From Dokdonia sp. Dokd-P16 (GTDB lineage Bacteria; Bacteroidota; Bacteroidia; Flavobacteriales; Flavobacteriaceae), in assembly GCF_003095655.1 (NCBI RefSeq), contig NZ_CP029151.1, positions 1,797,001 to 1,861,000 of the forward strand: a stretch of DNA of 64,000 nucleotides, written 5' to 3'. The position numbers and the translations under genes were made by a program. The notes below the pieces were generated by a model. That model worked only from the letters and a program-made list of their open reading frames with translations. It ran no database searches and was not told the origin of the DNA. Shown in pieces: positions 4,566 to 63,521 of this stretch. The stretch's first letter is position 1; the number at the start of each line of letters is the position of its first letter.

Positions 4566-5798
4566 ATGCATAAATTGTATTCTCTTTTAATCAGGCTTAT
4601 TCAAGCGCTAATTCCAGTAGCTGGTTTTTTTAATGCAAAGCTTAAGAAGTCGATAGTAGGACGTAAGCACACCTTGAAAATCCTTAAACGAGAAATCATA
4701 GCTGGCAAGCCTACTATCTGGATGCATGCAGCCTCTTTAGGAGAATACGAGCAAGGAGTACCTGTTCTTGAGGAGTTAAAAAAGAAGTATCCAGAGCACC
4801 AGATGGTAATTAGCTTTTTCTCGCCTTCTGGTTATGAGATCAAAAAGAATAACGCTTTCGCGAAAGCTACCGTTTACCTGCCATTTGACACCCCAAAAAA
4901 TGTTTCTAGGTTTTTAGATATAGTATCTCCAGAGATGGTGTTTCTTGTGAAATATGAATTCTGGCCGAACTATTTAAGCGAACTCAAACGCCGAAGGATT
5001 CGCACTTTTTTAATTTCAGGGGTATTTAGGGAAAGTCAGCCATTTTTTAAACCTTATGGAAAGTGGATGACAGCATCTCTCAAAAGTTTTGAGCACTTTT
5101 TTTTGCAAAACGAAGATTCGGCAACTGTATTACAGAAGTTGGGATTTGAAAATTTTAGCGTAAGTGGAGATACCAGATATGATAGAGTGAGTCATCAAAT
5201 CGAAATGGACAACACCTTAGATTTTGTCCATACTTTTAAGAATGACAAAACATGTGTAGTGTGTGGCAGTACTTGGGCAGAAGATGATGCTGTGATTGTA
5301 AATTATATCAATAGGAATGAAGGCGCAGCAAAATTTATCATAGCACCGCATGAAATTAAGCCTGAGAAAATTGCACTGCTAGCCTCAAGTATTAAGGGCA
5401 GAGTAATGCTATACTCTCAAATGAGTGCAGCGTCACTGGCGTCTTGCGATGTATTGATTATAGATACTATAGGTCTTCTTACTAAAATATATAGCTATGC
5501 AGATATTGCTTACGTGGGTGGAGCGATGGGAACTACAGGACTGCATAATATTCTTGAGCCAGCAACCTTTGGTGTACCCATAATTACTGGAGGGAATTTT
5601 GATAAGTTTCCCGAGGCAAAAAAACTACAGCAACTCGCAGGACTTTATGCCGTAACTAATCAGGCCGAATTTGATGAGCGTCTATCCAAATTAATCTTAG
5701 ATGAAAAATTTAGAGCGCAAACAGGGATGATTGCGGGACACTTTATTAATAGTAATACGGGTGCCACAAAAGCGATTGTTGACTACTTAAGTAATTAG
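4566..5798 (+). CDS. waaA: 3-deoxy-D-manno-octulosonic acid (Kdo) transferase
   Basis: 410 aa, standard length for WaaA/KdtA. It transfers Kdo from CMP-Kdo to lipid A precursor at the inner face of the cytoplasmic membrane. Residues 1-22 form a membrane anchor. Glu60 in MHAASLGE is the expected catalytic base, and the GT30 motifs ISFFSPSGYE and YVGGAMGTTGLHNILEPA are present. The gene carries a TTTCGCGAAA palindrome (4856-4865) that is translated as AFAKA, apparently tolerated within the N-terminal domain. It is divergent from the DegT aminotransferase and is followed by a convergent DUF2461 gene. Confidence 0.93.
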   Translation: MHKLYSLLIRLIQALIPVAGFFNAKLKKSIVGRKHTLKILKREIIAGKPTIWMHAASLGEYEQGVPVLEELKKKYPEHQMVISFFSPSGYEIKKNNAFAKATVYLPFDTPKNVSRFLDIVSPEMVFLVKYEFWPNYLSELKRRRIRTFLISGVFRESQPFFKPYGKWMTASLKSFEHFFLQNEDSATVLQKLGFENFSVSGDTRYDRVSHQIEMDNTLDFVHTFKNDKTCVVCGSTWAEDDAVIVNYINRNEGAAKFIIAPHEIKPEKIALLASSIKGRVMLYSQMSAASLASCDVLIIDTIGLLTKIYSYADIAYVGGAMGTTGLHNILEPATFGVPIITGGNFDKFPEAKKLQQLAGLYAVTNQAEFDERLSKLILDEKFRAQTGMIAGHFINSNTGATKAIVDYLSN

Positions 5799-5823
5799 CT
5801 TGCTCAAGACTAAAGGACGGTTT

Positions 5824-6483
5824 CTAAGTTACTATAGATACAGCCTCTCTTAAGTATCTTCTAAAGGAGAGCATCTCTTTATAGACTGTTATAATTCTTT
5901 TTTCAAAATCATCTGCTAGTACTTGTTCTTGTGAGAGTGTCACTTCTACTGCAAACGTTTTGTTTCTTAATAAATCTATGTGTGGGTGATCTTTAGAAAA
6001 TCCTTTTGGAGCTGTTTTAAGTTTATCGTCTTCCCACAAACCGCCAAATGTTTTTACAAAACTAGGTTTGTTTATAATAGCTTTTAACTCCTCACCATTA
6101 TAATCTATGGCTTCGCGTATACTTTGTAAAATTTCTTTTTTAGGCCTCCAAAAACCTCCTGCTAGTAAATTCTGACTGAGACCTATTTCAATATAAAAAT
6201 CTCCTTGTTTTGTTTTCTGGTCGAGTCCTGCACCTATGTGATCTTTGTAAATAGGTTTGTTAGGATGAAACATCAAATTGTTATTGATGCGATTAATTGC
6301 TTTTTTGCCTGGGGTGTCAAAATACTCAGTATCAAATTGGGCGAGTTTGTCATTTAAGTGATTAAGCCATTTGATGTGATTATCTCGTACATGATGATAC
6401 TCATTTCTATGAGCATCCATCCACTCTTTTGTGTTGTTCTGTTGTAGTCGTTCTAAGAAATTGTAAGTGTCTCTAAAATTCAT
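5824..6483 (-). CDS. DUF2461 family protein
   Basis: 219 aa with the features of the DUF2461/TIGR02453 family: N-terminal FLERLQQNNTKEWMDAHR, central RINNNLMFHPNKPIYKDHIG, and C-terminal FSKDHPHIDLLRNKTFAV. Members are widespread soluble proteins of unknown function. There is no signal peptide or membrane segment. It stands alone on this strand, convergent with waaA. I cannot assign a reaction. Confidence 0.85.
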   Translation of the reverse strand: MNFRDTYNFLERLQQNNTKEWMDAHRNEYHHVRDNHIKWLNHLNDKLAQFDTEYFDTPGKKAINRINNNLMFHPNKPIYKDHIGAGLDQKTKQGDFYIEIGLSQNLLAGGFWRPKKEILQSIREAIDYNGEELKAIINKPSFVKTFGGLWEDDKLKTAPKGFSKDHPHIDLLRNKTFAVEVTLSQEQVLADDFEKRIITVYKEMLSFRRYLREAVSIVT

Positions 6484-6623
6484 GAAAATAAAATTAACAG
6501 TTTTTATCTATAAATGAGCTAGATATTCAAAAGTTAACGAATGGTTTGGAAAACCTTGGTTATAAATTGTGCTTTACGGCATTATTACTAAGATACATTT
6601 GTGCTCTAAACAACCATCAAATT

Positions 6624-9941: not shown

Positions 9942-9961
9942 TACGCTTTCGCGAAAGCGTA
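9942..9961. repeat. TTTCGCGAAA-family palindrome, 20 bp perfect copy
   Basis: TACGCTTTCGCGAAAGCGTA, perfectly palindromic, between fabD and the isochorismatase-like gene. One of 17 copies of the core in the window. Confidence 0.95.
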
Positions 9962-11596: not shown

Positions 11597-12667
11597 ATGA
11601 AAAATTTTGCAAAACTCTTTCCTATTTTAAAACAGTACACCTATCTCAATACTGCAGCATCGGGCTTATTATCACTGCCTGTGATGGAGTGGCGTCAAGA
11701 GCATGATCTCGATTTTCTTATACAAGGTAGTATACTTAAAGAGAATCAAGCAAAAGTACTCACAGGCGTACGAGAAAAGGTAGGTAAGCTTTTTTCTTGT
11801 AAAGCAAAAAGAGTAGCACTTGTGCCTAATTTTTCTTACGGATTCAACACGCTTATAGATGGGATAACAACGCATAAAAAAGTACTTCTTTTAGAAGGAG
11901 ATTACCCTTCGGTAAACTGGCCTTTTGAGAGTCGCGACTTTGACTTGAGTTATATAAAAATTACGGGAACTGTTGAGGAGGAGATAGCAACCGCTTTCGC
12001 GAAAGCGCAACCAGATATATTTGCCTTTTCTATGGTGCAGTGGTTATCTGGTATAAAAATCAATCATGAGTTCTTGAAAGAGTTAAAGTCAAAATATCCC
12101 GACACCTTGTTTTTTGCAGATGCTACGCAATATCTAGGCACCGAAATATTTGATTTTGATAATTCTGCATTTGATGTGATAGGAGGAAGTACTTACAAGT
12201 GGATGAATGCTGGATATGGTAATGCATTATTTTTATTTAAAGAGTCTGTAGCAGAGCGTGTAGCTCCTAGAACTACAGGTTTCAATTCTATACAAGGAAA
12301 ATATAAGCCTCAAGAAGGTAGTTTTTTAGGAAGGTTTGAGCCAGGTCATCAAGACACGCTCAATTACGGGAGTCTAGGTGTCGCCATTGATGTTATACGA
12401 CAGCTAGGTGTGAAAACCATAGATGAAAAAGTAAAAACTATAAACGCTAAAGCAAAAGAAGCCTTTGCCGAGAGAGGACTTATTTCAAAAGAAATTATAG
12501 ACCGAGTAGATCATGGTTCATTTTTTAATATCAAGGGAAATGACCAGCTTGTCGCACGATTAAGGAATGAAGGAATAATAACAATTGCACGAGGTGAAGG
12601 TGTGCGGGTAGGATTTCATTATTTTAATACAGAAGAAGATCTCAATAAATTGCTAGTTCTTGTGTAG
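11597..12667 (+). CDS. Class V aminotransferase-fold PLP enzyme
   Basis: 356 aa, related to cysteine desulfurase/kynureninase-type fold I enzymes. The PLP lysine is Lys201 in GGSTYKWMNAGYG, and the preceding FADATQYLG carries the cofactor-binding Asp. It lacks the desulfurase loop cysteine pattern that I can recognise. A TTTCGCGAAA palindrome (11995-12004) is translated as AFAKA near residue 134. The gene stands alone on + between units on -. About 2 kb away are egtD and egtB, and the ergothioneine lyase EgtE has this fold, so a lyase role is a possibility but weakly supported. Confidence 0.8.
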   Translation: MKNFAKLFPILKQYTYLNTAASGLLSLPVMEWRQEHDLDFLIQGSILKENQAKVLTGVREKVGKLFSCKAKRVALVPNFSYGFNTLIDGITTHKKVLLLEGDYPSVNWPFESRDFDLSYIKITGTVEEEIATAFAKAQPDIFAFSMVQWLSGIKINHEFLKELKSKYPDTLFFADATQYLGTEIFDFDNSAFDVIGGSTYKWMNAGYGNALFLFKESVAERVAPRTTGFNSIQGKYKPQEGSFLGRFEPGHQDTLNYGSLGVAIDVIRQLGVKTIDEKVKTINAKAKEAFAERGLISKEIIDRVDHGSFFNIKGNDQLVARLRNEGIITIARGEGVRVGFHYFNTEEDLNKLLVLV

Positions 12668-14589: not shown

Positions 14590-15756
14590 TTATTTGGCTA
14601 GGCGTAAGCCTGTAAATTGCCAGCGTAATCCGGTCTGAAAGAAATTGCGATAGGTATGTCTTGTATGTTTAGATGGCGTGGCTACAGAGCCACCTCTCAA
14701 GACTTTTTGATTAACCATGAACTTCCCGTTATATTCCCCTAGTGATCCTTCTTCTTTAGTGTAGCCAGGGTAAGGTAAGTATGAGCTTTCTGTCCATTCC
14801 CATCGATCACCCCAGTCTAGTTGGGAGCTAGCGACCTCCCATTCAAATTCTGTAGGTAACCTCATTCCTTTCCATTGTGCAAAAGCAAATGCTTCGTAAT
14901 AGGAGATATGAACAAGTGTGTCATCTGGATTAATTTTTTGTAATCCATTATTGAGCGTGTATTGGTGCCATTGATCATCTACTAGATGCCAGTACATGGG
15001 AGCAGTTATCTCGTGAGTATTTACCCAGTCCCAGCCTTCGGCATGCCATAAGAGTGTTTCTTGATAACCTCCAGCTTCAATAAATGCTATCCACTCATCA
15101 TTAGTTACTAGTTTGTTTGATATTTCATAATCGTGCAAGTATACTTTGTGACGGCCTAATTCATTGTCGTAGCAAAACTCTTTTCCTGTGTGACCTATTT
15201 CATAAACTCCTTCTCTAATAGAGATGAAGCTTGGTTGTGTTCCTTTTTCGCTTTCGCGAAAGCGTAATTCTCCTCCGTAAATAGGCGTAAGGGGATTGTT
15301 ACCTAAAATGTATTTAATATCTGTGACAAGTAATTCTTGATGCTGTTTCTCGTGGTGTATGCCAATAGTGAGTAGCTTTTTTACCGTGGGTGTAATTTCT
15401 TCCTCAAGAAGCTCTTGGAGTGCTTGAGTGACGTATTTACGGTATGCATATACTTGGTCTACTGTTGGTCTTGATAGGTTGCCGCGATCTGTGCGCACGA
15501 CTCTTTTTCCTACGCTCTCATAGTAGCTATTAAATACGAATGCAAAGTCTTCACTAAAAAGAGTGTATCCCTGCTTATGATGCTTGAGAATAAATTCTTC
15601 AAAAAACCAAGTTGTATGGCCTAGGTGCCACTTTGGGGGAGAGACGTGTGCAATGGGTTGCACTACGTAATCCTCAATTTCTAGTGGTTTACAGATGTTC
15701 TCTGTGTGTGCTCGAGTTTCATTAAAGAATTCGACAAGGTTTTCTATAGCAATCAT
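14590..15756 (-). CDS. egtB: Ergothioneine-type sulfoxide synthase (EgtB-like)
   Basis: 388 aa. An N-terminal DinB-like four-helix domain contains the iron ligands (His in LGHTTWFFEEF and the two in HHEKQHQELL). The C-terminal formylglycine-enzyme/sulfatase-modifying fold ends with the family signature RGGSVATPSKHTRHTYRNFF and FTGLRLAK. It joins hercynine to a thiol using O2 and Fe(II). No egtA or egtC is nearby, so cysteine rather than gamma-glutamylcysteine may be the thiol donor (inference). A palindrome (15252-15261) is translated as RFRES. A TAGGAGTAATTCCTTA site resembling the XRE operator lies about 130 bp upstream. Confidence 0.9.
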   Translation of the reverse strand: MIAIENLVEFFNETRAHTENICKPLEIEDYVVQPIAHVSPPKWHLGHTTWFFEEFILKHHKQGYTLFSEDFAFVFNSYYESVGKRVVRTDRGNLSRPTVDQVYAYRKYVTQALQELLEEEITPTVKKLLTIGIHHEKQHQELLVTDIKYILGNNPLTPIYGGELRFRESEKGTQPSFISIREGVYEIGHTGKEFCYDNELGRHKVYLHDYEISNKLVTNDEWIAFIEAGGYQETLLWHAEGWDWVNTHEITAPMYWHLVDDQWHQYTLNNGLQKINPDDTLVHISYYEAFAFAQWKGMRLPTEFEWEVASSQLDWGDRWEWTESSYLPYPGYTKEEGSLGEYNGKFMVNQKVLRGGSVATPSKHTRHTYRNFFQTGLRWQFTGLRLAK

Positions 15757-19232: not shown

Positions 19233-19248
19233 CGCTTTCGCGAAAGCG
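19233..19248. repeat. TTTCGCGAAA-family palindrome
   Basis: CGCTTTCGCGAAAGCG, 16-bp perfect palindrome, in the intergenic region between the carboxypeptidase-D-like gene and the nucleoside transporter gene. Confidence 0.95.
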
Positions 19249-23312: not shown

Positions 23313-23332
23313 TACGCTTTCGCGAAAGCGTA
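23313..23332. repeat. TTTCGCGAAA-family palindrome, 20 bp perfect copy
   Basis: TACGCTTTCGCGAAAGCGTA, identical to the copy at 9942-9961, in the etfB/pdhB divergent promoter region. Confidence 0.95.
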
Positions 23333-24521: not shown

Positions 24522-24534
24522 TTTCGCGAAAGCG
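24522..24534. repeat. TTTCGCGAAA-family palindrome, half-extended copy
   Basis: TTTCGCGAAAGCG with only the right arm extended, directly after pdhB and before its terminator. Confidence 0.9.
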
Positions 24535-27235: not shown

Positions 27236-27296
27236 GGAGATTTTTACGCTTTTGCGAAAATGTACTATCCTTTTTATGATGTAGCCTCAAACCATT

Positions 27297-27956
27297 TAGG
27301 CTAATTGCTTTCAGAATTATATCTTTAGATAGGTAATCACAGTCTAAGAGAGAAGAACAAAAAGTAACCCTATGTTGTGAATTGCTTTCAGAATTATATC
27401 TTTAGATAGGTAATCACAGTGCCAGAGTATGAGCATTTGATTGATAGTTTGTTGTGAATTGCTTTCAGAATTATATCTTTAGATAGGTAATCACAGTAGC
27501 ATTAGGACTTAAATCAATAGCTTTCTGTTGTGAATTGCTTTCAGAATTATATCTTTAGATAGGTAATCACAGTTTTAGTGTTGTTTTTAAAAAAGCTTTA
27601 TCCGTTGTGAATTGCTTTCAGAATTATATCTTTAGATAGGTAATCACAGTCGCACACTTGCCCAAAATGCTCGCATACTGTTGTGAATTGCTTTCAGAAT
27701 TATATCTTTAGATAGGTAATCACAGTTACATCTAATCGTCATTGTGTGGCTTGTTGTTGTGAATTGCTTTCAGAATTATATCTTTAGATAGGTAATCACA
27801 GTCGTGAGTTATCAAGGCTGCCGCAATGGCTTGTTGTGAATTGCTTTCAGAATTATATCTTTAGATAGCTAATCACAGTAAGAATGATTAATATGTGCGA
27901 GATGAAAGAGTTGTGAATTGCTTTCAGAATTATATCTTTAGATAGGTAATCACAGT
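27297..27956 (+). CRISPR. Type II-C CRISPR array, 9 repeats and 8 spacers
   Basis: Repeats are 47 bp, starting GTTGTGAATTGCTTTC and ending GGTAATCACAGT. They start at 27297, 27374, 27451, 27527, 27604, 27680, 27756, 27833 and 27910. Spacers are 29 or 30 bp. Repeat 1 is degenerate in its first 6 bases and repeat 8 has G to C at 27869. The + strand is the crRNA strand: the tracrRNA anti-repeat at 33937-33960 is complementary to it and a + strand terminator follows the array. Each intact repeat contains TTG at positions 2-4 and TATCTTTA at 24-31 with 19 bp between, a close match to the Bacteroidetes promoter, so each spacer may be transcribed from its own repeat. Confidence 0.98.
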
Positions 27957-27990
27957 ATACCCGCTATAAAAAGCTGGTATACTGTTTTTT
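27954..27990 (+). terminator. Terminator of the CRISPR array
   Basis: AGTATACC pairs with GGTATACT (27954-27961 with 27976-27983), with inner GCT/AGC pairs and a T6 run at 27985-27990. The first three bases of the stem are the last three of repeat 9. Confidence 0.8.
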
Positions 27991-28031
27991 ACGTCTATGT
28001 ATAGCATTAAAAAAATGGAGGTTTAACTTGA

Positions 28032-28051
28032 GCCTTTAACTAGTTAAAGGC
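28032..28051. repeat. 20-bp perfect palindrome between array and cas2
   Basis: GCCTTTAACTAGTTAAAGGC. No T-run follows on either strand, so it is not a clear terminator. It lies 14 bp downstream of the cas2 stop and could be a protein site or an mRNA 3' stem. Confidence 0.6.
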
Positions 28052-28064
28052 GAGATTGTTATTT

Positions 28065-28409
28065 CTAAAAGAGTTCTAATTGCTGGCTAGGAGTTTCTGG
28101 TGCAACTTCTTTTTGACCATGAAAGAGCTCCATCATCCCAAACTGTTTATCTGTAATCTGCATGATGCAGATTTTTCCTTTTTTAGGTAAATTATTCTTA
28201 GTGCGTCGTATATGTACACTTGCGTTTTCTCTACTCGCACAAAACCGCATATAAATACTGTATTGAAACATGGCAAACCCATCATTAAGAAGCTCTTTTC
28301 TAAATCGAGCAGCCACTTTTTTCTCAGTCCGCGTTTCTGTAGGTAAATCAAAAAATACAAGTACCCACATAGATCGATATTGATTAAGCCGTGTAAAATT
28401 GTTTGACAT
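28065..28409 (-). CDS. cas2: CRISPR-associated endonuclease Cas2
   Basis: 114 aa. Ferredoxin-like fold start MWVLVFFDLPTETRTEKK carries the conserved Asp after the first strand. FRKELLNDGFAMFQYSIYMRFC and GKICIMQITDKQFG follow as in type II Cas2 proteins. It forms the adaptation complex with Cas1 that inserts new spacers. It is last in the cas9-cas1-cas2 operon, 9 bp after cas1, and its stop lies about 110 bp from the array. Confidence 0.95.
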   Translation of the reverse strand: MSNNFTRLNQYRSMWVLVFFDLPTETRTEKKVAARFRKELLNDGFAMFQYSIYMRFCASRENASVHIRRTKNNLPKKGKICIMQITDKQFGMMELFHGQKEVAPETPSQQLELF

Positions 28410-28418
28410 TGAGCGATG

Positions 28419-29330
28419 TTAGCGTCTGCTTAAGGCATATTCTGGATATAGCACTTTACGGTTAGTGCCCGCAAAACAATCATATAAGCTACTCGTTGTT
28501 CTACTTACGGCATTCATAAGTGGAGACCATGACCCATCTATATATACATCTAGCGCGGGAATTAATAGTAGTTCTGACTTTAACTTGGTATTGAGTTCGT
28601 TCAAGTCGCAACCACTTTCTACTAGTTCATAGACTACGGCATCCACATAAATACGGTACGGTTCCATAATATCATCTGCAAGACAAAATGCATTATACTT
28701 GTTGCGATGGAAGATGCCCACAGACGGCAACATCCCACTACTCACTAAAGCTCTCGCGACAATAGCTCTCAGTATGGCATATCCATAATTAAGAAGATTA
28801 TTAGGAGCTACTCCTTTTTGATTACGGCTAAAACCTTCTACCTCGCTAAATAGCTGTTGAAAATAATAGGCAGCTGCATACGCCTCATGATTATCTGCAT
28901 CTCCACTTTTTACGGCAGTACTCCAGTTGCGTAGTTTGAGACCATTATTGCCTCTAGCTTCAGGGTGTAAGGCTTGATTGTAAATTTTGGCAGCAACAGT
29001 TTGTTGCCAAAAATTCTTTTTAAGAGGTAAGCTAGCATTAAGCTGGTGACGCATGCGTTCTGTTTGCAACGTATGACCCACCAACGGTTGTAAAAAACCA
29101 CAAGGTAAATGTTGGGCATCACAGGTAATGAGGGCGGTTTTATTTTGTACTAGCTTCATGAGTAAGCCATTAGTGATAGTTATCTGTGAGTTCTCTAATA
29201 CTACGTAACCTAAGTCCTCTATGGGAATCGTTTTCTGTTCTCTATCTTCATCAGGAAAAGAAACCACCAGTTGGTCATTTTTTGTGCTGAGGTAAGCTGG
29301 ATTACCGAAGAATAGAGTTTTTTTTATCAT
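28419..29330 (-). CDS. cas1: CRISPR-associated endonuclease Cas1 (type II)
   Basis: 303 aa, the usual length for type II Cas1. N-terminal beta domain (KKTLFFGNPAYLSTKNDQLVV, IPIEDLGYVVLEN) and C-terminal helical domain with LLNYGYAILRAIVARALVSSGMLPSVGIFHRN and ADDIMEPYR, where the metal-binding Glu/His/Asp residues of the integrase lie. The start overlaps the cas9 stop by 4 bp (ATGA), so translation is coupled. No csn2 or cas4 is present, which makes this subtype II-C. Confidence 0.96.
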   Translation of the reverse strand: MIKKTLFFGNPAYLSTKNDQLVVSFPDEDREQKTIPIEDLGYVVLENSQITITNGLLMKLVQNKTALITCDAQHLPCGFLQPLVGHTLQTERMRHQLNASLPLKKNFWQQTVAAKIYNQALHPEARGNNGLKLRNWSTAVKSGDADNHEAYAAAYYFQQLFSEVEGFSRNQKGVAPNNLLNYGYAILRAIVARALVSSGMLPSVGIFHRNKYNAFCLADDIMEPYRIYVDAVVYELVESGCDLNELNTKLKSELLLIPALDVYIDGSWSPLMNAVSRTTSSLYDCFAGTNRKVLYPEYALSRR

Positions 29331-33838: not shown

Positions 33839-33930
33839 AGTACCTGTCTTGTAAGAAATTTTTATAAAGCTATTAAAAAGAAATTCACGAAGTGTGCGGT
33901 TTCCCGTAAGGGAGATTAAAAAAAGTTTGT

Positions 33931-34024
33931 TATCTTTATAATTTTGAAAGCAATTCACAATAAGGATTATTCCGTTGTGAAAACATTGAAGGTGGTACTT
34001 TAATTAGTATCACCTTTCTTTTTT
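33931..34024 (+). ncRNA. tracrRNA of the type II-C system
   Basis: Plus-strand RNA between cas9 and ppa. The anti-repeat at 33937-33960 matches the reverse complement of repeat positions 3-26 in 23 of 24 bases. It is followed by a small GGA-TTAT-TCC nexus hairpin (33964-33973), a linker, and an 11-bp terminator stem (33989-33999 with 34006-34016) with a T-run to 34024. The 5' end is uncertain: TATCTTTA at 33931-33938 may be a -7 box, which would start the RNA near GAAAGCAATTCACAA, just the part that pairs with a mature crRNA. No matching TTG was found upstream. The remaining gap to ppa holds a TAACTTTG -7-like box at 34034-34041 and nothing else that I recognise. Confidence 0.88.
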
Positions 34025-41744: not shown

Positions 41745-42424
41745 CAGATGAGCTTATATCCGTATCCACGTACGTTTACGATTTCTATAGTAGGGTCGTC
41801 CTTTAGTTTTTTTCTAAGTTTTGATATAAAGACGTCCATGCTTCTTGCAGAAAAGAAATCATCATCACCCCATAATTTTTTAAGAATAAGTGATCGGTCT
41901 AGAACGGCATTGCGATTTTTATGAAGATGAAATAGTAAATGAGCCTCCCTGTGGGTTAACTTTTGTACGCTTTCGCGAAAGCGTAATTCTTGCCTTGTGA
42001 AATCGAAAATATAACTACCGATGGTTATAGCCTCAGCCTTTTGTTGCAATGTTTTACGTTGTAGTAAATTCTGAATTCTTACAATAAGCTCTTCTACGCT
42101 GAAAGGTTTTTTGAGATAATCATTACCACCTATACTAAACCCCTCAACCACATCTGCCGTTTGAGACTTTGCAGTGAGAAATATTATAGGAATCTCATCA
42201 TCTTGTTCACGAACCTCCTTTGCCACAGTAAACCCATCCTTTTTAGGCATCATCACATCGAGCACTAAGATGTCAGGCTTTTTAAGTTGGTATTGATTTA
42301 TCGCTTGAACACCATCTGTGCAGAGTGTTACATTAAAGCCACGACTCTCCAGACTTTCTTTTACAATGAGTCCTAGTGCTGGCTCATCTTCTGCGAGTAA
42401 GATATAAGGTTTATTTGTTGCCAT
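41741..42424 (-). CDS. OmpR-family response regulator
   Basis: 227 aa. Receiver domain 1-120 with Asp12/Asp13-type acidic pocket (LLAEDEP), phospho-acceptor Asp56 in LVLDVMMP and LKKPFSVEEL. The C-terminal winged helix has LTHREAHLLFHL and RSMDVFISKLRKKL ... GYGYKL. It is downstream of the sensor kinase gene and overlaps it by 14 bp, so it is a cognate pair. A palindrome at 41971-41980 is translated as RFRES between the two domains. Likely targets are the divergent GLPGLI genes, which carry three phased GTTAAC boxes upstream. Confidence 0.93.
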   Translation of the reverse strand: MATNKPYILLAEDEPALGLIVKESLESRGFNVTLCTDGVQAINQYQLKKPDILVLDVMMPKKDGFTVAKEVREQDDEIPIIFLTAKSQTADVVEGFSIGGNDYLKKPFSVEELIVRIQNLLQRKTLQQKAEAITIGSYIFDFTRQELRFRESVQKLTHREAHLLFHLHKNRNAVLDRSLILKKLWGDDDFFSARSMDVFISKLRKKLKDDPTIEIVNVRGYGYKLIC

Positions 42425-44206: not shown

Positions 44207-45046
44207 ATGAAATCACTTATTATTACTATACTGGTTACTGTTTTTGCTTTCGCGAAAGCGTACTCACAACAACTCTCAGGAATAGCAACTTATCAATCAC
44301 AACGATCTTTTGACTTTAAAATGAATAATGATAAGAACAATGGAATGAGCACCGAAATACAAAAGCAATTACAAGCTCAGATGAGAAAACAGTTTCAAAA
44401 AGAATATACACTTGCCTTTGTAGGCGCAGAATCTACTTACCAACAAGAAGAAAGTCTCGCTGCTCCTGCGCCATCTACTAATGGGATTACAGTCTCAATT
44501 TCTGGAGCCAAAGGCATCACATATCACAATACAACGGAGCAAAAATTATTAAAGGAAAGTGAGATTATGGGGAAGGAGTTTTTAGTGAACGACTCGCTAC
44601 CTAAATTGAAATGGGTGCTTGAAAAAGAAATTAAAAACATAGGAGTATACACTTGTTTTAAAGCTACCATCTCAGAAGAATATGAGCAGCCATCTTTTAA
44701 TGAAGAGACAGGAGAGGAGGAAGAATCTGTTACAAAGACGAGAACAATCACCGCATGGTACACGCTAGATATACCTGTAAATCATGGTCCAGATGAGTAC
44801 TGGGGATTACCTGGCTTAATACTAGAAGTGAGTGATGGTAAATTCTCACTTATGTGTACAAAAGTAGTTTTGAACCCAAAAAAGGGAGTGCAAATAGTAC
44901 TGCCAGAAAAAGGTAAAGAGGTTACCCAAGATGAATTTAATAAGATTCAAGAAGAAAAAATGGATGAAATGATGGAACGTCACGGAGGTGAAAGAGGTAA
45001 AAATGGAAGTCGCGTGTTTACAACCACAGAAATCATACGCAACTAG
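44207..45046 (+). CDS. GLPGLI-family secreted protein
   Basis: 279 aa. The signal peptide includes AFAKAYSQQ, where the palindrome TTTCGCGAAA (44248-44257) encodes part of the signal. The mature protein begins LSGIATYQSQ and holds the family signature YWGLPGLILEVSDG near residue 205. GLPGLI proteins are Bacteroidetes-specific, in the periplasm or outer membrane, and of unproven function, often beside TonB receptors. First of two tandem paralogues and probably controlled by the divergent two-component system. Confidence 0.88.
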   Translation: MKSLIITILVTVFAFAKAYSQQLSGIATYQSQRSFDFKMNNDKNNGMSTEIQKQLQAQMRKQFQKEYTLAFVGAESTYQQEESLAAPAPSTNGITVSISGAKGITYHNTTEQKLLKESEIMGKEFLVNDSLPKLKWVLEKEIKNIGVYTCFKATISEEYEQPSFNEETGEEEESVTKTRTITAWYTLDIPVNHGPDEYWGLPGLILEVSDGKFSLMCTKVVLNPKKGVQIVLPEKGKEVTQDEFNKIQEEKMDEMMERHGGERGKNGSRVFTTTEIIRN

Positions 45047-49002: not shown

Positions 49003-49019
49003 GCTTTCGCGAAAGCGTA
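49003..49019. repeat. TTTCGCGAAA-family palindrome
   Basis: GCTTTCGCGAAAGC (49003-49016) with GTA following, 20 bp before the CIA30 gene. Confidence 0.93.
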
Positions 49020-51464: not shown

Positions 51465-51478
51465 TTTCGCGAAAGCGG
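51465..51478. repeat. TTTCGCGAAA-family palindrome
   Basis: TTTCGCGAAAGCGG, upstream of the SAM-I riboswitch. It carries only the right-hand extension. Confidence 0.9.
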
Positions 51479-51796: not shown

Positions 51797-53089
51797 ATGA
51801 GTACACAAAAATTGGCAACCAAAGCGTTGCACGCAGGACACGATTATGCAGCAAATGGAGGAACTCGAGCGGTGCCTATCTACCAGAGCACGGCTTATGT
51901 TTTTAAAGATGCAGACCATGCAGCAAACCTATTTAACCTGTCTGAGCCAGGTTTTATTTACACACGTCTCAATAACCCTACAAATGACGTGCTGGAAAAA
52001 CGCCTTACAGAGATAGAGGGCGGACTAGCAGCCGTCGTGACCGCCTCAGGAACTGCGGCAATTAACACTACATTACTTACGTTACTAAAGCAGGGAGATC
52101 ACATTGTAGCTTCTAGTAGTCTTTACGGAGGCACATGGAATCTTCTGAGTGTGACATTACCACGTTTTGGGATTACAACCACTTTTGTAGATCCTTCAGA
52201 TCCTCAAAATTTTGAGAAGGCAGCCCAAGAAAATACGAGAGCTTTCTTTGTAGAGTCATTAGGTAATCCTAAGCTTGACGTATTAGATTTAAAAGGTATT
52301 TCCGCTTTCGCGAAAGCGCACAAAGTCCCTTTCATTGTAGATAACACCGTAGCAACACCAGCGCTACTCAACCCTATCGAGCACGGTGCAGATATCGTGA
52401 TTCACTCACTTACAAAGTATATAAACGGTAACGGTACCGCACTAGGCGGAGTTATTATAGATGCAGGTAAATTTGATTGGAGTAATGGTAAGTTCCCAGA
52501 ATTTACAGAGCCTTCCGCAGGATATCATGGCTTAGTTTACTGGGATGTGATTAAGGAAGCATCGTTTATTGCAAAAGTGCGTATAGAAGGATTGCGTGAT
52601 CATGGTGCCGCTTTGAGTCCATTTAATGCATTCCAAATCTTACAAGGTCTAGAAACACTAGAACTTAGGTTACAGAAACATTCAAAAAATGCCCTTGAAC
52701 TTGCAGAGTGGTTGCAAACTCGTGATGAGGTGGCATGGGTAAATTATCCAGGTCTTGCTTCTAGTAAGTACAACGACCTTGCAAAACAATATTTGCCTAA
52801 AGGACAGAGCGGAATTGTGACCTTTGGTGTAAAAGGAGGTTTTGAGAGTGCAAAAACAATCTCAAATGAAACTAAACTTTTCTCACTGCTAGCAAATATA
52901 GGAGATAGTAAATCGCTTATAATTCACCCTGCAAGTACAACCCATCAACAGCTTAGTGATGAGGATCAAGTAAGCACAGGCGTGACTAAAGATTTAATAC
53001 GTCTTTCTGTAGGTCTTGAGGATATAGCAGATTTAAAAGAAGATCTCGTGGCAGCATTTGCGCGAGTAGATAAAAACGTCTTAGTGTAA
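51797..53089 (+). CDS. metY: O-acetylhomoserine sulfhydrylase (MetY-like)
   Basis: 430 aa, the MetY length. It makes homocysteine from O-acetylhomoserine and sulfide with PLP. N-terminus TKALHAGHDYAANGGTRAVPIYQSTAYVF, PLP Lys in VIHSLTKYINGNG, and C-terminal IIHPASTTHQQLS are all family signatures. A palindrome (52306-52315) is translated as AFAKA. It is the first gene under the SAM-I riboswitch and is followed by a strong terminator-like hairpin before metX, so its level may exceed the rest. Confidence 0.93.
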   Translation: MSTQKLATKALHAGHDYAANGGTRAVPIYQSTAYVFKDADHAANLFNLSEPGFIYTRLNNPTNDVLEKRLTEIEGGLAAVVTASGTAAINTTLLTLLKQGDHIVASSSLYGGTWNLLSVTLPRFGITTTFVDPSDPQNFEKAAQENTRAFFVESLGNPKLDVLDLKGISAFAKAHKVPFIVDNTVATPALLNPIEHGADIVIHSLTKYINGNGTALGGVIIDAGKFDWSNGKFPEFTEPSAGYHGLVYWDVIKEASFIAKVRIEGLRDHGAALSPFNAFQILQGLETLELRLQKHSKNALELAEWLQTRDEVAWVNYPGLASSKYNDLAKQYLPKGQSGIVTFGVKGGFESAKTISNETKLFSLLANIGDSKSLIIHPASTTHQQLSDEDQVSTGVTKDLIRLSVGLEDIADLKEDLVAAFARVDKNVLV

Positions 53090-54141: not shown

Positions 54142-55217
54142 ATATAGTAATCTTTGGGATCGGTAATGTGGGGAGCACGCTTATCACACAGATCACAGAT
54201 TTTAATAAAAAAACAACAAATAGAAAGCTCAACATTTTTTGTATAGCAAATTCTAAGTTGGCGCTATTTAAAGATAACGTCACTTCTGGCTGGAGTTCTA
54301 ATTTTGAGACCGCAGCGCAGCCGTATACGCTTGAAGATATTTACGCTTTCGCGAAAAAGTTAAAGGAGCAAAAAAGTCATGAGCATGAGCAAGAACAAGA
54401 ATTTGTAGCAGTAGATGTAACGGCTAGCGCAACCTTTGCAAATAATTACATAGACCTCGTGGAACATGGTTTTCATATTGTTACAGCAAACAAAGTTGCA
54501 AACACACTGTCATACGATTTCTATAAAAAGTTGAGAGCTTCGCTTACACTTAATAAGAAGAAATTTGGTTACGAAACAAACGTTGGAGCCGGATTACCAA
54601 TTATAGAAACCATTAAAAACCTCTATGAAAGTGGAGAAGAGATCCATAAGATACGAGGAGTCTTTTCTGGATCATTAAGTTACTTGTTCAATAATTTTTC
54701 TAAGGAAGATAAAGACTTTTCAGACATATTATTAGAAGCAGACGCACTTGGACTTACTGAGCCAGACGCAAGAGAAGACCTTTCGGGGAAAGATGTTGCT
54801 CGCAAGTTATTAATACTAAGTAGAGAGATAGGCCTTGCAAAGGAGTTTGGAGATGTAAAAATCCAATCTTTAGTGCCTAAGGAACTTAATGGAAAAACTA
54901 CTTTATCACAGTTTCGCGAAAGCGTAAAAACACTTGACACCATTTTTACAGAGAGTAAAAGGAACCTTGCAAACAATGAGGTGCTACGTCACGTGGGAGA
55001 ACTCAATGTCAAAACGCAAGAACTCGAGGTAAAACTAGTACAAGAATCTAAGTTTACAGCACTAGGTCAAACGCAAGGAGCAGATGCTGTTTTTGAGATT
55101 TATACCGCTTCATATGGTGATCAGCCGCTTGTGATTCAAGGCGCGGGAGCTGGTAAAGCAGTAACGGCAAGAGGTGTTTTAAGCGATATAATTAAGATAA
55201 CGCAAAGCCTCAATTAA
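54129..55217 (+). CDS. hom: Homoserine dehydrogenase
   Basis: 362 aa. The NAD(P) fold opens with NIVIFGIGNVGSTL, then VDVTASATFANNY, HIVTANKVANTLSYD, and YETNVGAGLPIIETIKNL with IRGVFSGSLSYLFN, the C-terminal domain of the ThrA/Hom family. It reduces aspartate semialdehyde to homoserine. It is a single-function enzyme; an aspartokinase part is absent. Two palindromes are translated inside it (AFAKK at 54347-54356 and QFRES at 54912-54921). Its stop overlaps the next gene as TAATG. Confidence 0.92.
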   Translation: MSQINIVIFGIGNVGSTLITQITDFNKKTTNRKLNIFCIANSKLALFKDNVTSGWSSNFETAAQPYTLEDIYAFAKKLKEQKSHEHEQEQEFVAVDVTASATFANNYIDLVEHGFHIVTANKVANTLSYDFYKKLRASLTLNKKKFGYETNVGAGLPIIETIKNLYESGEEIHKIRGVFSGSLSYLFNNFSKEDKDFSDILLEADALGLTEPDAREDLSGKDVARKLLILSREIGLAKEFGDVKIQSLVPKELNGKTTLSQFRESVKTLDTIFTESKRNLANNEVLRHVGELNVKTQELEVKLVQESKFTALGQTQGADAVFEIYTASYGDQPLVIQGAGAGKAVTARGVLSDIIKITQSLN

Positions 55218-56389: not shown

Positions 56390-57384
56390 AAAGCCAACTC
56401 ACATGCGCATTAGAAGAAAGAATCTTGGTTCTTGATGGAGCTATGGGAACTATGCTGCAAGCATATAACTTCTCTGAAGAAGATTTTAGAGGAGAGCGCT
56501 TTAAGGATTTTCACCTCTCTGTAAAAGGAAATAACGATATGCTGTCACTTACACAGCCTGCTGCGATTGCAGATGTGCATCGCAAGTATTTTGAAGCAGG
56601 AGCAGATATTGTGGAGACTAACACCTTCTCAAGTACCACCATCGCAATGGCAGATTATGAGATGGAGGAGTACGTGTATGATTTAAATTACGCTTCCGCG
56701 AAAATTGCTAAGGAAGTTGCTCAGTCTTTTACAGAAAAAGAACCGCACAAACCAAGATTTGTAGCAGGAAGTATAGGGCCTACAAACAAAACAGCAAGCA
56801 TGTCTCCAGATGTAAATGATCCAGGATTTCGTGCAGTGAGCTTTGAAGAACTCAGAGTAGCTTATAAACAACAAGTAGAAGCCTTACTAGACGGAGGTGT
56901 GGATATGTTGCTTGTAGAAACGGTGTTTGATACCCTTAATGCAAAAGCTTGTCTTTTTGCAATAGAGGAAGTAAAAGAAGAACGGAACTCAGACATACCA
57001 ATTATGGTGAGTGGTACGATTACAGATGCATCTGGACGCACGCTTTCTGGGCAAACGGCAGAAGCTTTTTTGATTTCTATCTCTCACATTCCACTACTTA
57101 GTGTTGGTTTTAATTGTGCGCTAGGAGCTTCTCAATTACAACCGCATCTAGAAGCAATAGCAAATGTTACTAGCTACGGGATTTCTGCTCATCCCAATGC
57201 TGGCTTGCCTAATGCCTTTGGTGAGTATGATGAAACACCAGAACAAATGGCGACGCAGATTAAAAAATATATCGACAAAGATCTTGTGAATATAGTGGGT
57301 GGTTGTTGTGGCACTACACCTGCTCACATTAAAGCTATTGCTCAACTTGTAAAAGGAGTGACTCCACGATCAATAACCTTATAA
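56386..57384 (+). CDS. Methionine synthase, N-terminal homocysteine-binding part (split MetH)
   Basis: 332 aa comprising only the homocysteine S-methyltransferase barrel. [13 protein letters not shown] begins it and the zinc ligands are Cys244 in GFNCA and Cys307/Cys308 in GGCCGTT. In most bacteria this is fused to the rest of MetH, while here the next gene supplies the pterin, cobalamin and activation domains. A variant palindrome with one altered base is near 56691. Overlaps metZ by 4 bp. Confidence 0.93.
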
Positions 57385-60113
57385 TGAATACTACACCCAG
57401 ATATATGCGCCTTTCAGGTTTAGAGCCACTAATAATTACTTCAGAAAGTAATTTTATAAATGTGGGTGAACGTACAAATGTGGCGGGTTCAAAGAAATTT
57501 TTGCGGCTTATAAAAGAAGAGAAATTTGACGAGGCACTATCTGTCGCTAGAGATCAAGTAGAAAATGGCGCTCAAATTATAGATATCAATATGGACGACG
57601 GCCTTATTGATGGAAAGGAGGCGATGGTTAGGTTTTTAAACCTAGTCATTGCAGAGCCAGACATCTCTCGTGTTCCTATAATGATAGACAGTTCAAAGTG
57701 GGAAATCATAGAAGCTGGTCTTCAAGTCGTACAAGGGAAGTGCGTAGTAAATTCTATAAGTCTTAAAGAGGGTGAGACGCAATTTATAGAGCAAGCAAAA
57801 AAAATAAAACGATACGGTGCTGCCGTAGTGGTTATGGCTTTTGATGAGGTGGGACAGGCAGATAATTATAAGCGTCGTATTGAGATTTCAAAACGTAGTT
57901 ACGAGATTTTGGTTAATGAAGTCAATTTCCTGCCAGAAGACATCATTTTTGATCTTAATATTTTTCCAGTGGCGACGGGAATGGACGAGCATAAACGCAA
58001 TGCGTTAGATTTTATAGAAGGCACGCGATGGGTAAGAGATAATTTACCTCATTGTTCTGTAAGTGGTGGGGTGAGTAATGTTTCTTTTAGTTTTAGAGGT
58101 AACAACGCAGTGCGCGAGGCAATGCATTCTGTGTTTTTATATCATGCGATAAAGGCCGGGATGAATATAGGTATTGTAAACCCTGCTATGCTGGAGATTT
58201 ACGATAACATTCCAGAAGATTTATTGGTGCGTGTAGAAGATGTAATTCTCAATAGAAGAGATGATGCAACAGAACGACTACTAGCATTTGCAGAAACTGT
58301 AGGTCAAAAAGAAATTACAGAAAAGGAGACGGAAGCCTGGAGAACAGAAGATATCCAAAGTCGTATCACCAGAGCACTTGTAAAAGGAATAGATGCCTAC
58401 ATTCTAGAAGATGTAGAAGAAGCCCGCTTATCTGTCGATGCTCCTATTAAAGTGATAGAAGGTCACTTAATGAGTGGGATGAACGTAGTAGGAGACTTGT
58501 TTGGAAGTGGGAAGATGTTTTTGCCTCAGGTGGTTAAATCGGCCAGGGTAATGAAGAAAGCCGTTGCCTACTTGTTACCTTTTATAGAGGAAGAGAAACT
58601 TAAAAATGGAACTTCTGGCAGTAATCAAAGTGCGGGTAAAATCCTCATGGCTACCGTAAAAGGTGATGTACATGACATAGGTAAGAATATTGTTTCTGTA
58701 GTGCTTGCTTGCAATAATTATGAGATTATCGACCTAGGTGTGATGGTCTCACCAGAAAAAATCATCCACACAGCCATTGCTGAAAATGTAGATGTAATAG
58801 GGCTTAGTGGTTTGATTACGCCTAGTCTTGATGAGATGGTATATCTAGCTAAAGAGTTGCAACGTCTAGATATTAAAATTCCAGTGTTAATAGGCGGTGC
58901 AACCACGAGCAAAGCACACACCGCTGTAAAAATTGATACTCATTATAACAATGCGGTGGTACACGTAAATGATGCAAGTAGAGCAGTAACTATTGTAGGT
59001 GATTTATTAAAGAAAGACTCAAGTATTCTTTTTAAAGATCAATTAAAAAATGAGTATGCACGCTTTCGCGAAAATTTTAACTCAAGACAACGCATTAAGG
59101 AATACGTGACGATTGAGCAGGCGAGAGCAAATAAATTAGAAATAACTTTTAAAGCCGAAGATATTGTCGCTCCAAAAGAACTAGGTGTACAAGTGATTGA
59201 ACATTTAGACCTGAAGAAACTGATGCCTTTTATAGATTGGAGTCCGTTTTTTAGAAGTTGGGATTTACATGGTAAGTATCCAGAAATTTTGACAGATGAG
59301 GTGGTGGGAACACAAGCCAGCGAACTATTTGCAGACGCACAACAAATGCTCCAGCAAATTATTGACGAGAAGTGGCTCACTGCAAAGGCAACTTTTGGGC
59401 TGTTTAAAGCAAACGCAAATAACCAAGATGATATTGTAATTCCCCCAACCCCCGAAGGGAGCTTTGAGCAAGATGATAAAAAGTCTCCTTTCGAAGCTGG
59501 AGGAGTCATTTTCCGAACGTTACGCCAGCAATCCAAAAAGGCAGCAGGAAAGCCAAATATTTCACTATCAGATTTTATAGCTCCGCTTGAAAGTGGTATT
59601 CAAGATTATATAGGCGCCTTTTGTGTTACGACAGGATTTGGAACAGCCGAAAAAGCAAAAGAGTTTGAAGAAGCCCTAGATGACTATAGTGCCATCATGA
59701 TTAAAGCACTTGCAGACAGACTCGCCGAAGCCTTTGCCGAGTGTTTACACAAGGAAGTGCGTACAACATACTGGGGATATGCTAACAAAGAAGCGCTAGC
59801 CAATACAGATCTAATTAAAGAAAAATACCAAGGAATACGTCCAGCGCCAGGTTATCCGGCTTGTCCAGATCACCTTGAGAAAGAGACTATTTGGAAGTTG
59901 CTTGGTGTGGAAGAGTCAATAGGTGTTTCACTTACCGAAAGTTTGGCAATGTGGCCTGCGGCAAGTGTAAGTGGTTATTATTTTGGGCATCCTGAGGCAA
60001 GGTATTTCGGGCTAGGAAAAATAAAAGAAGATCAAGTAAAGGACTATGCGAGCCGTAAAAATATTGCTTTCGCGAAAGCGGAAAAATGGCTCACCCCAAA
60101 TATAGCAGAGTAG
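57384..60113 (+). CDS. metH: Methionine synthase, pterin-, cobalamin- and activation-domain part (split MetH)
   Basis: 909 aa. Order: pterin-binding domain (about 15-280, [25 protein letters not shown]), cobalamin cap and binding domains with GDVHDIG whose His430 is the lower cobalt ligand, then the activation domain (about 570-909) with [15 protein letters not shown] and [20 protein letters not shown]. It works with the preceding short gene to remethylate homocysteine with methyl-cobalamin. Two palindromes lie in the gene (59064-59073 RFREN, 60068-60077 AFAKA). The start overlaps the previous stop by one base. Confidence 0.94.
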
Positions 60114-61082: not shown

Positions 61083-61104
61083 GTTATGGTGTTAAAAGTT
61101 GCCA

Positions 61105-61674: not shown

Positions 61675-61700
61675 GTTCTAAATTTTAGCAGACGGCATCA

Positions 61701-62840
61701 TTATCTAACGTATAGTTGTACCTCATTAACTGCAGTACCATTTGACGGAAGTCCACCATTCCAAGGATTTCTACTACCTATTGAATAAAACCAATTTCCA
61801 AAACCTACAGAGCCATCAAGGTATGTATTACCTCCAGACCCTTCCAGTCCTCCCCAACCATTTTGAGTCATATCAATACTAATCGGCACGTAACCAGCTA
61901 CGGGGCTTGTGCCAGGTCCACTTCGTGGATCAAAATCTTGTTTCCAGTGGTTTCTTAAATTGAATGTAGGATAGTAGATTCTAAACTCATAATCGCTATC
62001 ACTTTTAAGGTCATCTAGTCTACTCAAAATCGAGTATTTAGGAGTTGTGAGTCCTGGTAATAGAACATTGAACTCACTGGCTTGGGTGTCATTTAGCCAA
62101 TATCCTCCTGCAATATTATGATTAAAGACAAGAGTCCAGCCCCCACCGTCATTTGTCATATCACAGTAACAGTCGTATGGTGCCAGAGGCCCAGCGCCAT
62201 CTGTATCAATAGTGTAAATTCCATCAGCTGTTTCCCCTGCATTCAGATATTCTAAGCAATTCTTAAGTATGGAATCTGTAGTGACGTCTACAGTACATAA
62301 ATTGGAATTTCCAGCGAGGGATATTGTAAAAGTATCTGTTTGAGTAATAAGCGGTATGCCAACACCAGTTAGCGTAACACTTGTTAAACCTGCATTTGTA
62401 AATACTCCTGCTCCCGTAAAACTATAACCATTTACGGTATTTGTTGTAATCAAATAAGGGCCTACTACATTTACTAGGACATCTATGGTGATAGTGCCAT
62501 TACCAGCAAGAGGAACTCCTGTGGCAAAAGTTCCATTTGCTATTGGAGAAGTACAATCTAAGGAAGTGGTAGGGGCTTCGGCAAGGCAATCAGACCATCC
62601 AGTTGCTTTATAAAATTGAAAGCAAGTACTATCTGTATTATAAATAAATAATCCTTCTGCAGGTGAAACAATAGCATCCCTCTCTACGGCTGTCATTCTA
62701 GGTAGTAATAATCCACGATTAGAAGATGATATATCAAGAGCCGATGATGGATCTGGGTTTGTAGTATTTATACCAACTTGCGCATTAGAATAAGAGATAG
62801 ATAATGCAAAAAGGAATAAAAAAAAGAAATTTTTAAACAT
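61701..62840 (-). CDS. Secreted fibrinogen-like domain protein
   Basis: 379 aa with signal peptide (ending SNAQ). Residues about 20-190 match the shorter paralogue (QVGINTTNPDPSSALDI ... CFQFYKATGWSDC). The C-terminal part (about 193-379) has NAGETADGIYTIDTDGAGPLAPYDCYCDMTNDGGGWTLVFN, the opening of fibrinogen-related C-terminal domains, with WYFYSIGS-like aromatic segments later. Such domains bind sugars or proteins in animals. In this bacterium it may be a surface adhesin (inference). Probably co-transcribed with the short paralogue. Confidence 0.8.
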   Translation of the reverse strand: MFKNFFFLFLFALSISYSNAQVGINTTNPDPSSALDISSSNRGLLLPRMTAVERDAIVSPAEGLFIYNTDSTCFQFYKATGWSDCLAEAPTTSLDCTSPIANGTFATGVPLAGNGTITIDVLVNVVGPYLITTNTVNGYSFTGAGVFTNAGLTSVTLTGVGIPLITQTDTFTISLAGNSNLCTVDVTTDSILKNCLEYLNAGETADGIYTIDTDGAGPLAPYDCYCDMTNDGGGWTLVFNHNIAGGYWLNDTQASEFNVLLPGLTTPKYSILSRLDDLKSDSDYEFRIYYPTFNLRNHWKQDFDPRSGPGTSPVAGYVPISIDMTQNGWGGLEGSGGNTYLDGSVGFGNWFYSIGSRNPWNGGLPSNGTAVNEVQLYVR

Positions 62841-63095
62841 TTAATGAAGTTGAGGGATTTTTCTTTTATCAAAAATAAAGGTTCTTTATGTACTTGTAAT
62901 AAATAAGTTAGGGGAATTTTGTAAAATTTTTTCGGTGTGAATAGTGTATGATTTTTCGGTGTCGTTAAACATTTTAAAGCTCACGATGAGATAGAATTAT
63001 TTTAGAATTAATATTCAATACGTGTATGCCGGTATTTTTTAATTATAAATTATCCCTATTTCTAAGTAGAGTTTTTTAGTACTTTCGTTTTAGAT

Positions 63096-63521
63096 ATGCT
63101 TTCGCGAAAAACTAAATACGGCATTAAAGCCCTAACGTACATTGCCCGTGAACAACGGGAAGATGCTTTGGTGCAAATAGGCACCATTGCTGAAAGTGAA
63201 AATATCTCTCAAAAATTCCTTGAAAGCATTATGCTTACGCTTAAAAAAGCGGGCTTCGTATCCAGCCGAAAAGGTAAAGGTGGTGGATACCAACTGCGTC
63301 GTGAGCCTAAGGATATCAAAATGGTTGAGGTCATGAGAGTACTTGAAGGACCCGTTGCCATGCTGCCATGTGTATCTCTCAATTATTATGAACGTTGTGC
63401 AGATTGTAAAGATGAGGATGCATGTTCTGTTCATAGTTTAATGATACAAATAAGAGATAACACACTTCTTGTGTTAGAGAAGAATACGCTTGCAGACCTT
63501 GTAGCGGCTGCTAGTTCGTAG
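63096..63521 (+). CDS. Rrf2-family transcriptional regulator
   Basis: 141 aa. Winged helix MLSRKTKYGIKALTYIAREQ, SENISQKFLESIMLTLKKAGFVSSRKGKGGGYQL, followed by cysteines in MLPCVSLNYYERCADCKDEDAC that could hold an Fe-S cluster, as in CysR/CymR- or IscR-like regulators. It stands just upstream of a DUF2061 gene and cysH, so it likely controls sulfate assimilation or cysteine synthesis. Its start codon lies 4 bp before a TTTCGCGAAA palindrome, which therefore encodes residues 2-5. Confidence 0.9.
   Translation: MLSRKTKYGIKALTYIAREQREDALVQIGTIAESENISQKFLESIMLTLKKAGFVSSRKGKGGGYQLRREPKDIKMVEVMRVLEGPVAMLPCVSLNYYERCADCKDEDACSVHSLMIQIRDNTLLVLEKNTLADLVAAASS

Follow-up and report, generated by a model that had tools for sequence, protein, structure and literature searches.

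A palindrome iterated genome-wide in Dokdonia: anatomy, distribution and candidate role as a DNA uptake signal

We analysed a stretch of 64,000 nucleotides from the chromosome of Dokdonia sp. Dokd-P16 (Flavobacteriaceae; NZ_CP029151.1, positions 1,797,001 to 1,861,000), referred to below as the window and numbered from its first letter, in which a first-pass annotation had noticed a densely repeated ten-base palindrome, TTTCGCGAAA. The motif is real, occurs genome-wide and is maintained by selection or drive. As its candidate function we tentatively favour, at somewhat less than even confidence, that of a DNA uptake signal, given its strict core, the conservation of its sites, the protein differences found at them, its even spacing, its intergenic bias, its restriction to a few lineages and its lack in two phages. 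Literature searches on the word itself, on iterated palindromes, on flavobacterial uptake and palindromes and on palindromes in Dokdonia found no description of TTTCGCGAAA among the papers listed.

Abundance of the motif and anatomy of the element

All 17 exact copies reported in the first-pass annotation were recovered at their starts (17/17), and its judgement that they would be very rare by chance was borne out: 0.04 copies are expected in the window, and the largest count in 100 dinucleotide shuffles was 1. Allowing one mismatch added 5 further copies. The longer palindromes described around several cores are likewise perfect, spanning 16 bp at 11995, 15252, 19236 and 52306 and 20 bp at 9947, 23318 and 41971. 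Across the complete genome (3,623,447 bp, one contig) the word occurs 1074 times, or once per 3.4 kb, and the same letters reversed occur 10 times. We also drew a 464-kb sample of this genome, consisting of the window and 20 stretches of 20 kb each, and counted every ten-base palindrome containing four G/C (320 in all). Since the motif reached 132 copies and the runner-up 7 (mean of the rest 0.53), palindromes of the same composition are far less frequent; equal frequency would have told against the original observation. Such vast over-representation of a short word is a trait of the DNA uptake sequences (DUS) of Neisseriaceae and the uptake signal sequences (USS) of Pasteurellaceae, and iteration of a palindrome is one of the highly iterated palindromes (HIP) of cyanobacteria. 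A second repeated word, ACAGTAACAA, was present in 21 copies in 80 kb of this genome and is probably a local repeat.

The motif forms the strict core of an element of about 50 bp, in which GC adjoins one or both ends of the core and the 5' flanks are poor in C and rich in G and T (consensus in the 464-kb sample, TTACGCTTTCGCGAAAGCGTAA). Perfect palindromy continues into the flanks of 11 of the 17 window copies, to a total length of 14-20 bp. The dinucleotide GC adjoins the core on both sides in 107 of the 132 sampled copies, on one side in 25 and on neither in 0; similarly, every one of 303 sites sampled in Dokdonia, Nonlabens and the genus g206 has it on at least one side, the sites from relatives being in part orthologous. 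The 132 exact cores are accompanied by 31 one-mismatch copies, and 16 of the 31 mismatches fall at the third base. One such third-base variant, TTACGCGAAA, occupies the position orthologous to window 54347 in three relatives (G008, G016 and G003); its being kept in all three suggests that it may have retained a function.

On both sides, the 5' flank as read toward the core contains little C and much G and T between about -6 and -20. C makes up 6.8% of bases at -6 to -10, 6.8% at -11 to -15 and 8.2% at -16 to -20 in this genome, then rises across a sharp edge between -20 and -21 to 13.8% at -21 to -25 and, past -30, to 16.5%; over -11 to -20 it accounts for 196 of 2600 bases (7.5%), compared with 16.5% further out. 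This C-poor flank was observed inside genes, between genes, in Nonlabens and in phage contigs, and in weaker form in g206. Conversely, the 373 places with CGCG outside the motif lack a flank of this kind (C 18.9%, G 19.2%). From -6 to -40 the two flanks are no more mirror-complementary than flanks with shuffled partners, and the element is therefore not an extended hairpin. The flank composition suggests either the extent of a symmetric protein complex or a requirement on strand composition.

Distribution among bacteria

Counts in relatives, which the first-pass annotation had proposed as a check, show that the 17 other Dokdonia genomes carry 481-1195 copies each, and that the count is 0-8 in 21 genomes belonging to different genera of the same family and order. 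Among 397 genomes of the family, six are rich in the motif, namely the present one, another Dokdonia (1107), three Nonlabens (595-700) and one g206 (559), and the remaining 391 have at most 34 copies; in 395 genomes of the phylum, this one aside, the maximum is 29. A 24-base form of the element matched 105 stretches in a collection of 84,980 species, and the 80 of these 105 that were listed all derive from Dokdonia, Nonlabens or 'Flavobacteria bacterium BBFL7'. When k-mers were counted without a preset word, TTTCGCGAAA again ranked top in the g206 and Nonlabens samples. Five motif-poor genera, sampled at 80 kb each, yielded no comparable word of their own, their listed 10-mers reaching at most 5.5 copies compared with 24 motif copies in an 80-kb Dokdonia sample.

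Genomic placement and spacing

Using simple open reading frame (ORF) calls, which cover 92% of bases, we assigned 60 of the 132 sampled sites to intergenic DNA, a density of 1.54 per kb versus 0.17 per kb within genes (ninefold). The 72 genic sites are read in three frames, mostly as AFAK (35), FRES (19) and LSRK (18). Intergenic densities are alike for tandem (1.76 per kb), convergent (1.42) and divergent (1.23) gene pairs. Short distances between neighbouring copies are depleted: of 111 gaps, 3 were below 500 bp, versus 16.3 expected under uniform placement and 21.0 under placement weighted to non-ORF DNA, and 12 were below 1000 bp, versus 30.5 and 33.7, respectively. None of 500 simulations had as few short gaps. 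Copies are spaced as if one per kilobase-scale stretch suffices, which mutation bias alone would not produce. Around the chromosome, counts per 20 kb range from 1 to 8 with a variance/mean of 0.68, below random. Because these counts are even and reveal no evident trend toward origin or terminus, the replication site suggested in the first-pass annotation is unlikely.

Motif copies in the window and their conservation

The copies in the window, together with the CRISPR-cas block, are as follows (no strand assigned; G-numbers denote genomes used for comparison):

4856..4865: motif core, 14-bp palindrome; in Kdo-transferase-like gene 4566-5798; same in G006, G008, G016 and G003
9942..9961: motif, 20-bp perfect palindrome; intergenic
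11992..12007: motif, 16-bp palindrome; in gene 11597-12667; missing in G016 and G003
15249..15264: motif, 16-bp palindrome; in egtB-like gene 14590-15756
19233..19248: motif, 16-bp palindrome; intergenic
23313..23332: motif, 20-bp perfect palindrome; intergenic
24522..24531: motif core; directly after gene 23541-24518; one-sided GC flank
27250..27259: one-mismatch copy TTTTGCGAAA; intact motif here in G016
27260..33956: CRISPR-cas block (cas2, cas1, cas9); no motif; unaligned to any of the regions compared from five relatives
41966..41985: motif, 20-bp perfect palindrome; in response-regulator gene 41741-42424; one mismatch in G006, absent in G008, G016 and G003, present in G011
44248..44257: motif core; close to the start of gene 44207-45046
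49005..49014: motif core; intergenic
51465..51474: motif core; intergenic; one-sided GC flank; in an indel relative to G008, G016 and G003
52303..52318: motif, 16-bp palindrome; in Cys/Met-metabolism enzyme gene 51797-53089; same codons in g206
54347..54356: motif core; in homoserine-dehydrogenase gene 54129-55217
54912..54921: motif core; also in homoserine-dehydrogenase gene 54129-55217
59064..59073: motif core; in metH (57384-60113), read as RFRE
60068..60077: motif core; close to the end of metH, read as AFAKA
63100..63109: motif core; ORF 63096-63521, at its beginning

To gauge conservation, retention was defined as the exact core being kept at aligned sites, with gaps counted as loss and local 10-mers as the control. 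The motif was retained at 15 of 16 sites in G006 (control 63%), 13 of 17 in G008 (31%), 11 of 15 in G016 (14%, at about 77% identity), 11 of 15 in G003 (16%), 7 of 10 in G011 (9%) and 4 of 4 in G012 (54%). Most of the sites compared differ by substitution and one by an indel. At position 5927, where G016 and G003 carry the motif, the window differs at about 10 bases in 22 with no gap, a divergence resembling that of young neisserial uptake sequences, which are described as too diverged for point mutation (PMC2397512).

Of the two sites within metH, 59064 is present in all 16 Dokdonia genomes with the gene (G004 and G017 have no metH match) and absent in five other genera, comprising g206 and four motif-poor ones; among the 14 Dokdonia genomes with an aligned metH that reaches site 60068, 11 have the motif there. 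Relative to the other genera, both sites differ by base changes without change in length, and the proteins differ, for example PLEEATKWL in G018 and AFAKAEKWL in Dokdonia. The probable direction of change is taken from the outgroups. As both sites keep the same length, these copies do not display the origin by insertion that marks repetitive extragenic palindromes (REP/REPIN) and Rickettsia palindromic elements (RPE). In G011 and G015, the metH match was split by in-frame extra sequence of about 60 and 385 bases, respectively, within open frames of 968 and 1061 codons.

Few sites are shared beyond the genus. Of 32 places homologous to Dokdonia sites in the g206 sample, 4 rows showed the motif. 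Two of these represent one position, in the gene carrying site 52306, compared with two Dokdonia genomes (89-91% protein identity), and a third lies in a second gene at about 64% identity; the fourth, at 32% identity and in another reading frame, was dropped. Placed in the other direction, 2 of 6 g206 sites were shared with Dokdonia. Between Dokdonia and Nonlabens 1 of 23 sites was shared (34% identity), and with motif-poor genera 0 of 45, 0 of 4 and 0 of 4. A common origin of the motif in Dokdonia, Nonlabens and g206 is plausible. In trees with few genera, the outer-membrane partner of the DUF5689 protein (see below) joins the three, the DUF5689 protein does not, and ParB gives no clear grouping. 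Taken together, the motif is conserved in position and commonest between genes while also occurring within them, as are DUS and USS, divergence of the flanks excepted.

The motif-free segment

The first-pass annotation had reported that the motif is absent from 25-41 kb except for decayed forms, and that the segment may be younger or foreign. There is indeed no exact copy between 24531 and 41971, and two of the decayed forms, at 25742 and 27250, are one mismatch off; the third, at 38107, is a half site only. Since about six gaps of this size (17.4 kb) are expected by chance at the genome-wide density, the gap alone means little. A younger age fits the CRISPR-cas block at 27260-33956, which is unaligned and motif-free and looks, from these alignments, like a recent gain of this genome. 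The remainder of 25-41 kb does not fit a younger age, since relatives can be aligned there and sites are present in G016 and G003. More generally, 7967 bases of the window lack an alignment to any relative and hold 0 motifs where about 2.4 are expected, which is weak evidence, and bases aligned to at least three of five relatives hold 0.30 motifs per kb. The block itself is of Type II and encodes Cas1, Cas2 and a Cas9 of 1543 aa.

Occurrence in phages

A 16-base form of the element was found in 41 stretches of viral contigs, several of which exceed 50% G/C and look like chance or unrelated matches. Motif-bearing phage contigs were found via the motif, so that its density on them is biased upward. 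One example reads RFRES in its portal gene and AFAKA in its terminase gene; its terminase shares 54.5% identity with the counterpart in Winogradskyella phage Peternella_1, which has annotated Mu-like genes and 0 motif copies. Another motif-bearing phage contig stretch carries an integrase gene. Across their 35.7 and 35.65 kb, two related phages obtained from Nonlabens hosts (named Persicivirga at the time) lack the motif, both in exact form and with one mismatch, compared with an expectation of about six per phage at the density of the Nonlabens sample. These two phages, which we take to be lytic, encode their own recombination genes and have no annotated integrase. In this small sample, the word appears to be acquired by DNA that resides in the chromosome and not by the rest of the phage DNA.

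Candidate machinery

We searched for proteins tracking the motif in a panel of 44 genomes, 22 motif-rich and 22 hand-picked motif-poor, some of them incomplete. None of four methyltransferase families searched covers all 22 motif-rich genomes: PF00145 was found in 10, PF01555 above cut-off in 3 and PF02086 in 13, none of these in the present genome, and PF02384 was found in 20 including the present genome, with none in G222 or G009. The latter, a Dokdonia genome 93% complete with 700 motif copies, matches none of the four. The restriction or methylation site raised in the first-pass annotation is therefore disfavoured. A D12-type adenine methyltransferase occurs in 12 of 18 Dokdonia (two weakly) versus 2 of 22 motif-poor genomes and is absent here. 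A LexA/SOS operator was likewise rejected, as the motif fits neither of the known Bacteroidetes operators, CTAA-N5-TTAG and GGA-N5-TCC (PMC8565304).

With respect to transformation, uptake by a type IV pilus of the kind that serves DUS and USS was set aside, given the patchy occurrence of its ATPase family, PF00437. Pilus-free competence is reported for Riemerella, and the DUF5689 family is represented among the genes described as essential for transformation in R. anatipestifer (PMC8459023). A DUF5689 match is present in all 22 motif-rich genomes, and a gene of 850-974 codons lies upstream of it in 18 of 20 loci inspected. Judged by these matches, the genome may encode the surface part of the known pilus-free transformation system, and nothing seen ties that system to the motif. 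In one Dokdonia genome (region G013:C1:934350) the DUF5689 protein measures 659 aa, seemingly with a duplicated C-terminal domain. The window itself encodes, at 46176-48941, a protein of 921 aa that has no NCBIfam match and whose N-terminal domain is carboxypeptidase-regulatory-like; the same kind of domain marks a transformation-linked outer-membrane protein of Riemerella.

Alternative explanations

Sites for a clade-specific protein that organises or segregates the nucleoid, bound as a symmetric complex of about 50 bp and needed every few kb, would account for the dyad symmetry, for a flank composition symmetric to 20 bases per side without base-pairing, and for the even spacing and spread. 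The parS and Noc sites have TTTC...GAAA arms in a palindrome, as does the motif, with half-site spacing one base different. A cognate ParB-family protein was nevertheless rejected: this genome has a single ParB with no Noc-like paralogue, and no ParB change fits, one column separating motif-rich from motif-poor genomes among 18 aligned proteins (13 rich, 5 poor; 20 regions fetched). Moreover, keeping genic sites at a cost to the protein would demand strong selection on each of about 1000 sites, and the motif is present on phage contigs, so that we consider this explanation unlikely. Similarly unlikely is a Chi-like signal, at which a nuclease of the AddAB or RecBCD type would switch from degradation to RecA loading, the G/T-rich 15 bases 5' on each strand serving as the loading stretch and both host and resident phages benefiting. 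Chi lies in G/T-rich DNA, which RecA favours, and the G/T-rich flanks here therefore also suit a recombination-loading site. The density of one copy per 3.4 kb resembles that of Chi, and the scarcity of near-misses, the presence of the G/T-rich 5' flank on both strands, and occurrence on some phage contigs with absence from two phages that have their own recombination genes all agree. Conversely, the motif is palindromic and longer, and the Chi words known to us have 5-8 bases and are non-palindromic.

The motif shares with HIP1 and the alternate cyanobacterial HIPs a palindromic form, genome-wide iteration and clade specificity, and could thus be a palindrome made or used via a methyltransferase modifying part of the word. 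In its favour, each HIP genome in a cyanobacterial study has a matching predicted methyltransferase (PMC4390886). Here, by contrast, none of the four families covers the motif-rich genomes and G009 matches none; the 50-bp element exceeds a methylase site; and one-off copies, common in many cyanobacteria (PMC4390886), are few in Dokdonia, g206 being an exception. We regard a HIP-type origin as quite improbable. A mobile or structural element, whether an inserted palindromic repeat, terminator, operator or hairpin, is more improbable still. A 22-mer single strand can form a hairpin of nine pairs, and site 51465 lies within an indel. Against these stand the metH sites without length change, the lack of mirror-complementarity in the flanks from -6 to -40 beyond that with shuffled partners, and the similar intergenic densities across gene orientations; furthermore, of nine sites in 44-64 kb, a terminator-like call covers one, a genic site. 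Any probability beyond these four explanations and an uptake signal belongs to something else.

A DNA uptake signal as the favoured explanation

As an uptake signal, TTTCGCGAAA with its GC (at best TTACGCTTTCGCGAAAGCGTAA) and C-poor flanks would act as a self-label recognised during natural transformation. DNA of the same kind, carrying the label, would enter and recombine preferentially, so that copies, once arisen, would spread and lost ones would be restored, a process of molecular drive. Copies would build up to about one per few kb, mostly where harm is slight, and the build-up would stop once fragments of useful length carry one copy. Biased transformation is described as driving uptake words in this way (PMC7811141). 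By inference, whatever recognises the label belongs to the apparatus of DNA uptake or recombination, which would be the transformation system described in Riemerella that works without pili; this genome encodes one surface-protein family of that system. The motif is like DUS and USS in having about 1000 copies, a strict core with weaker flanks, intergenic enrichment and positional conservation (PMC2397512, PMC7811141). DUS and USS are also missing from or rare in recently acquired DNA; for the motif the picture is mixed, with no copies in the unaligned window bases or the two Nonlabens phages and copies on other phage contigs. It differs in being a perfect palindrome, in occurring in Bacteroidota without a conserved type IV pilus ATPase, and in having flanks that are not extra-diverged.

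A number of observations weigh against an uptake signal. Known uptake sequences act together with type IV pili, and here the PF00437 ATPase was not found above cut-off and is present in only 8 of 22 motif-rich genomes. Known uptake sequences are, moreover, not palindromic (PMC1939737). DUF5689 is equally common in motif-poor genomes (20/22), no feature exclusive to motif-rich genomes was seen in the part shown of an alignment of 20 DUF5689 proteins, and no receptor for the motif was found in this analysis. In g206, one-mismatch copies match exact ones in number (33 and 32). An indel of about 32 bases relative to G008 and G016, and a similar one relative to G003, encloses site 51465, and gain or loss of a motif-bearing stretch is therefore possible there. 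Sequence near uptake sites is more diverged in Neisseria (PMC2397512), and the flanks of conserved sites here are not more diverged than average. Finally, phage contigs other than the two Nonlabens phages carry the motif, in all three frames.

In its most specific form, the motif would be the first uptake signal in Bacteroidota and the first to be a perfect palindrome: an element of about 50 bp read by a pilus-independent receptor, possibly a DUF5689 lipoprotein with an outer-membrane partner, and spread by drive in three genera, also via resident phages. This version is possible, and we hold it with considerable doubt. A preference for own DNA in uptake is known in one flavobacterium, Riemerella columbina; the k-mer table of that study lists A/T-rich words whose role it leaves open, and the label was not identified there (PMC7965970). 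A word with a thousand copies, limited to three genera among the samples searched, makes the question testable. Should the motif turn out to have no part in uptake, a symmetric element of 50 bp would still be imposed by some protein on about 1000 sites, with changed proteins tolerated, which would be surprising in itself. In these marine bacteria, the element may mark resident versus incoming DNA.

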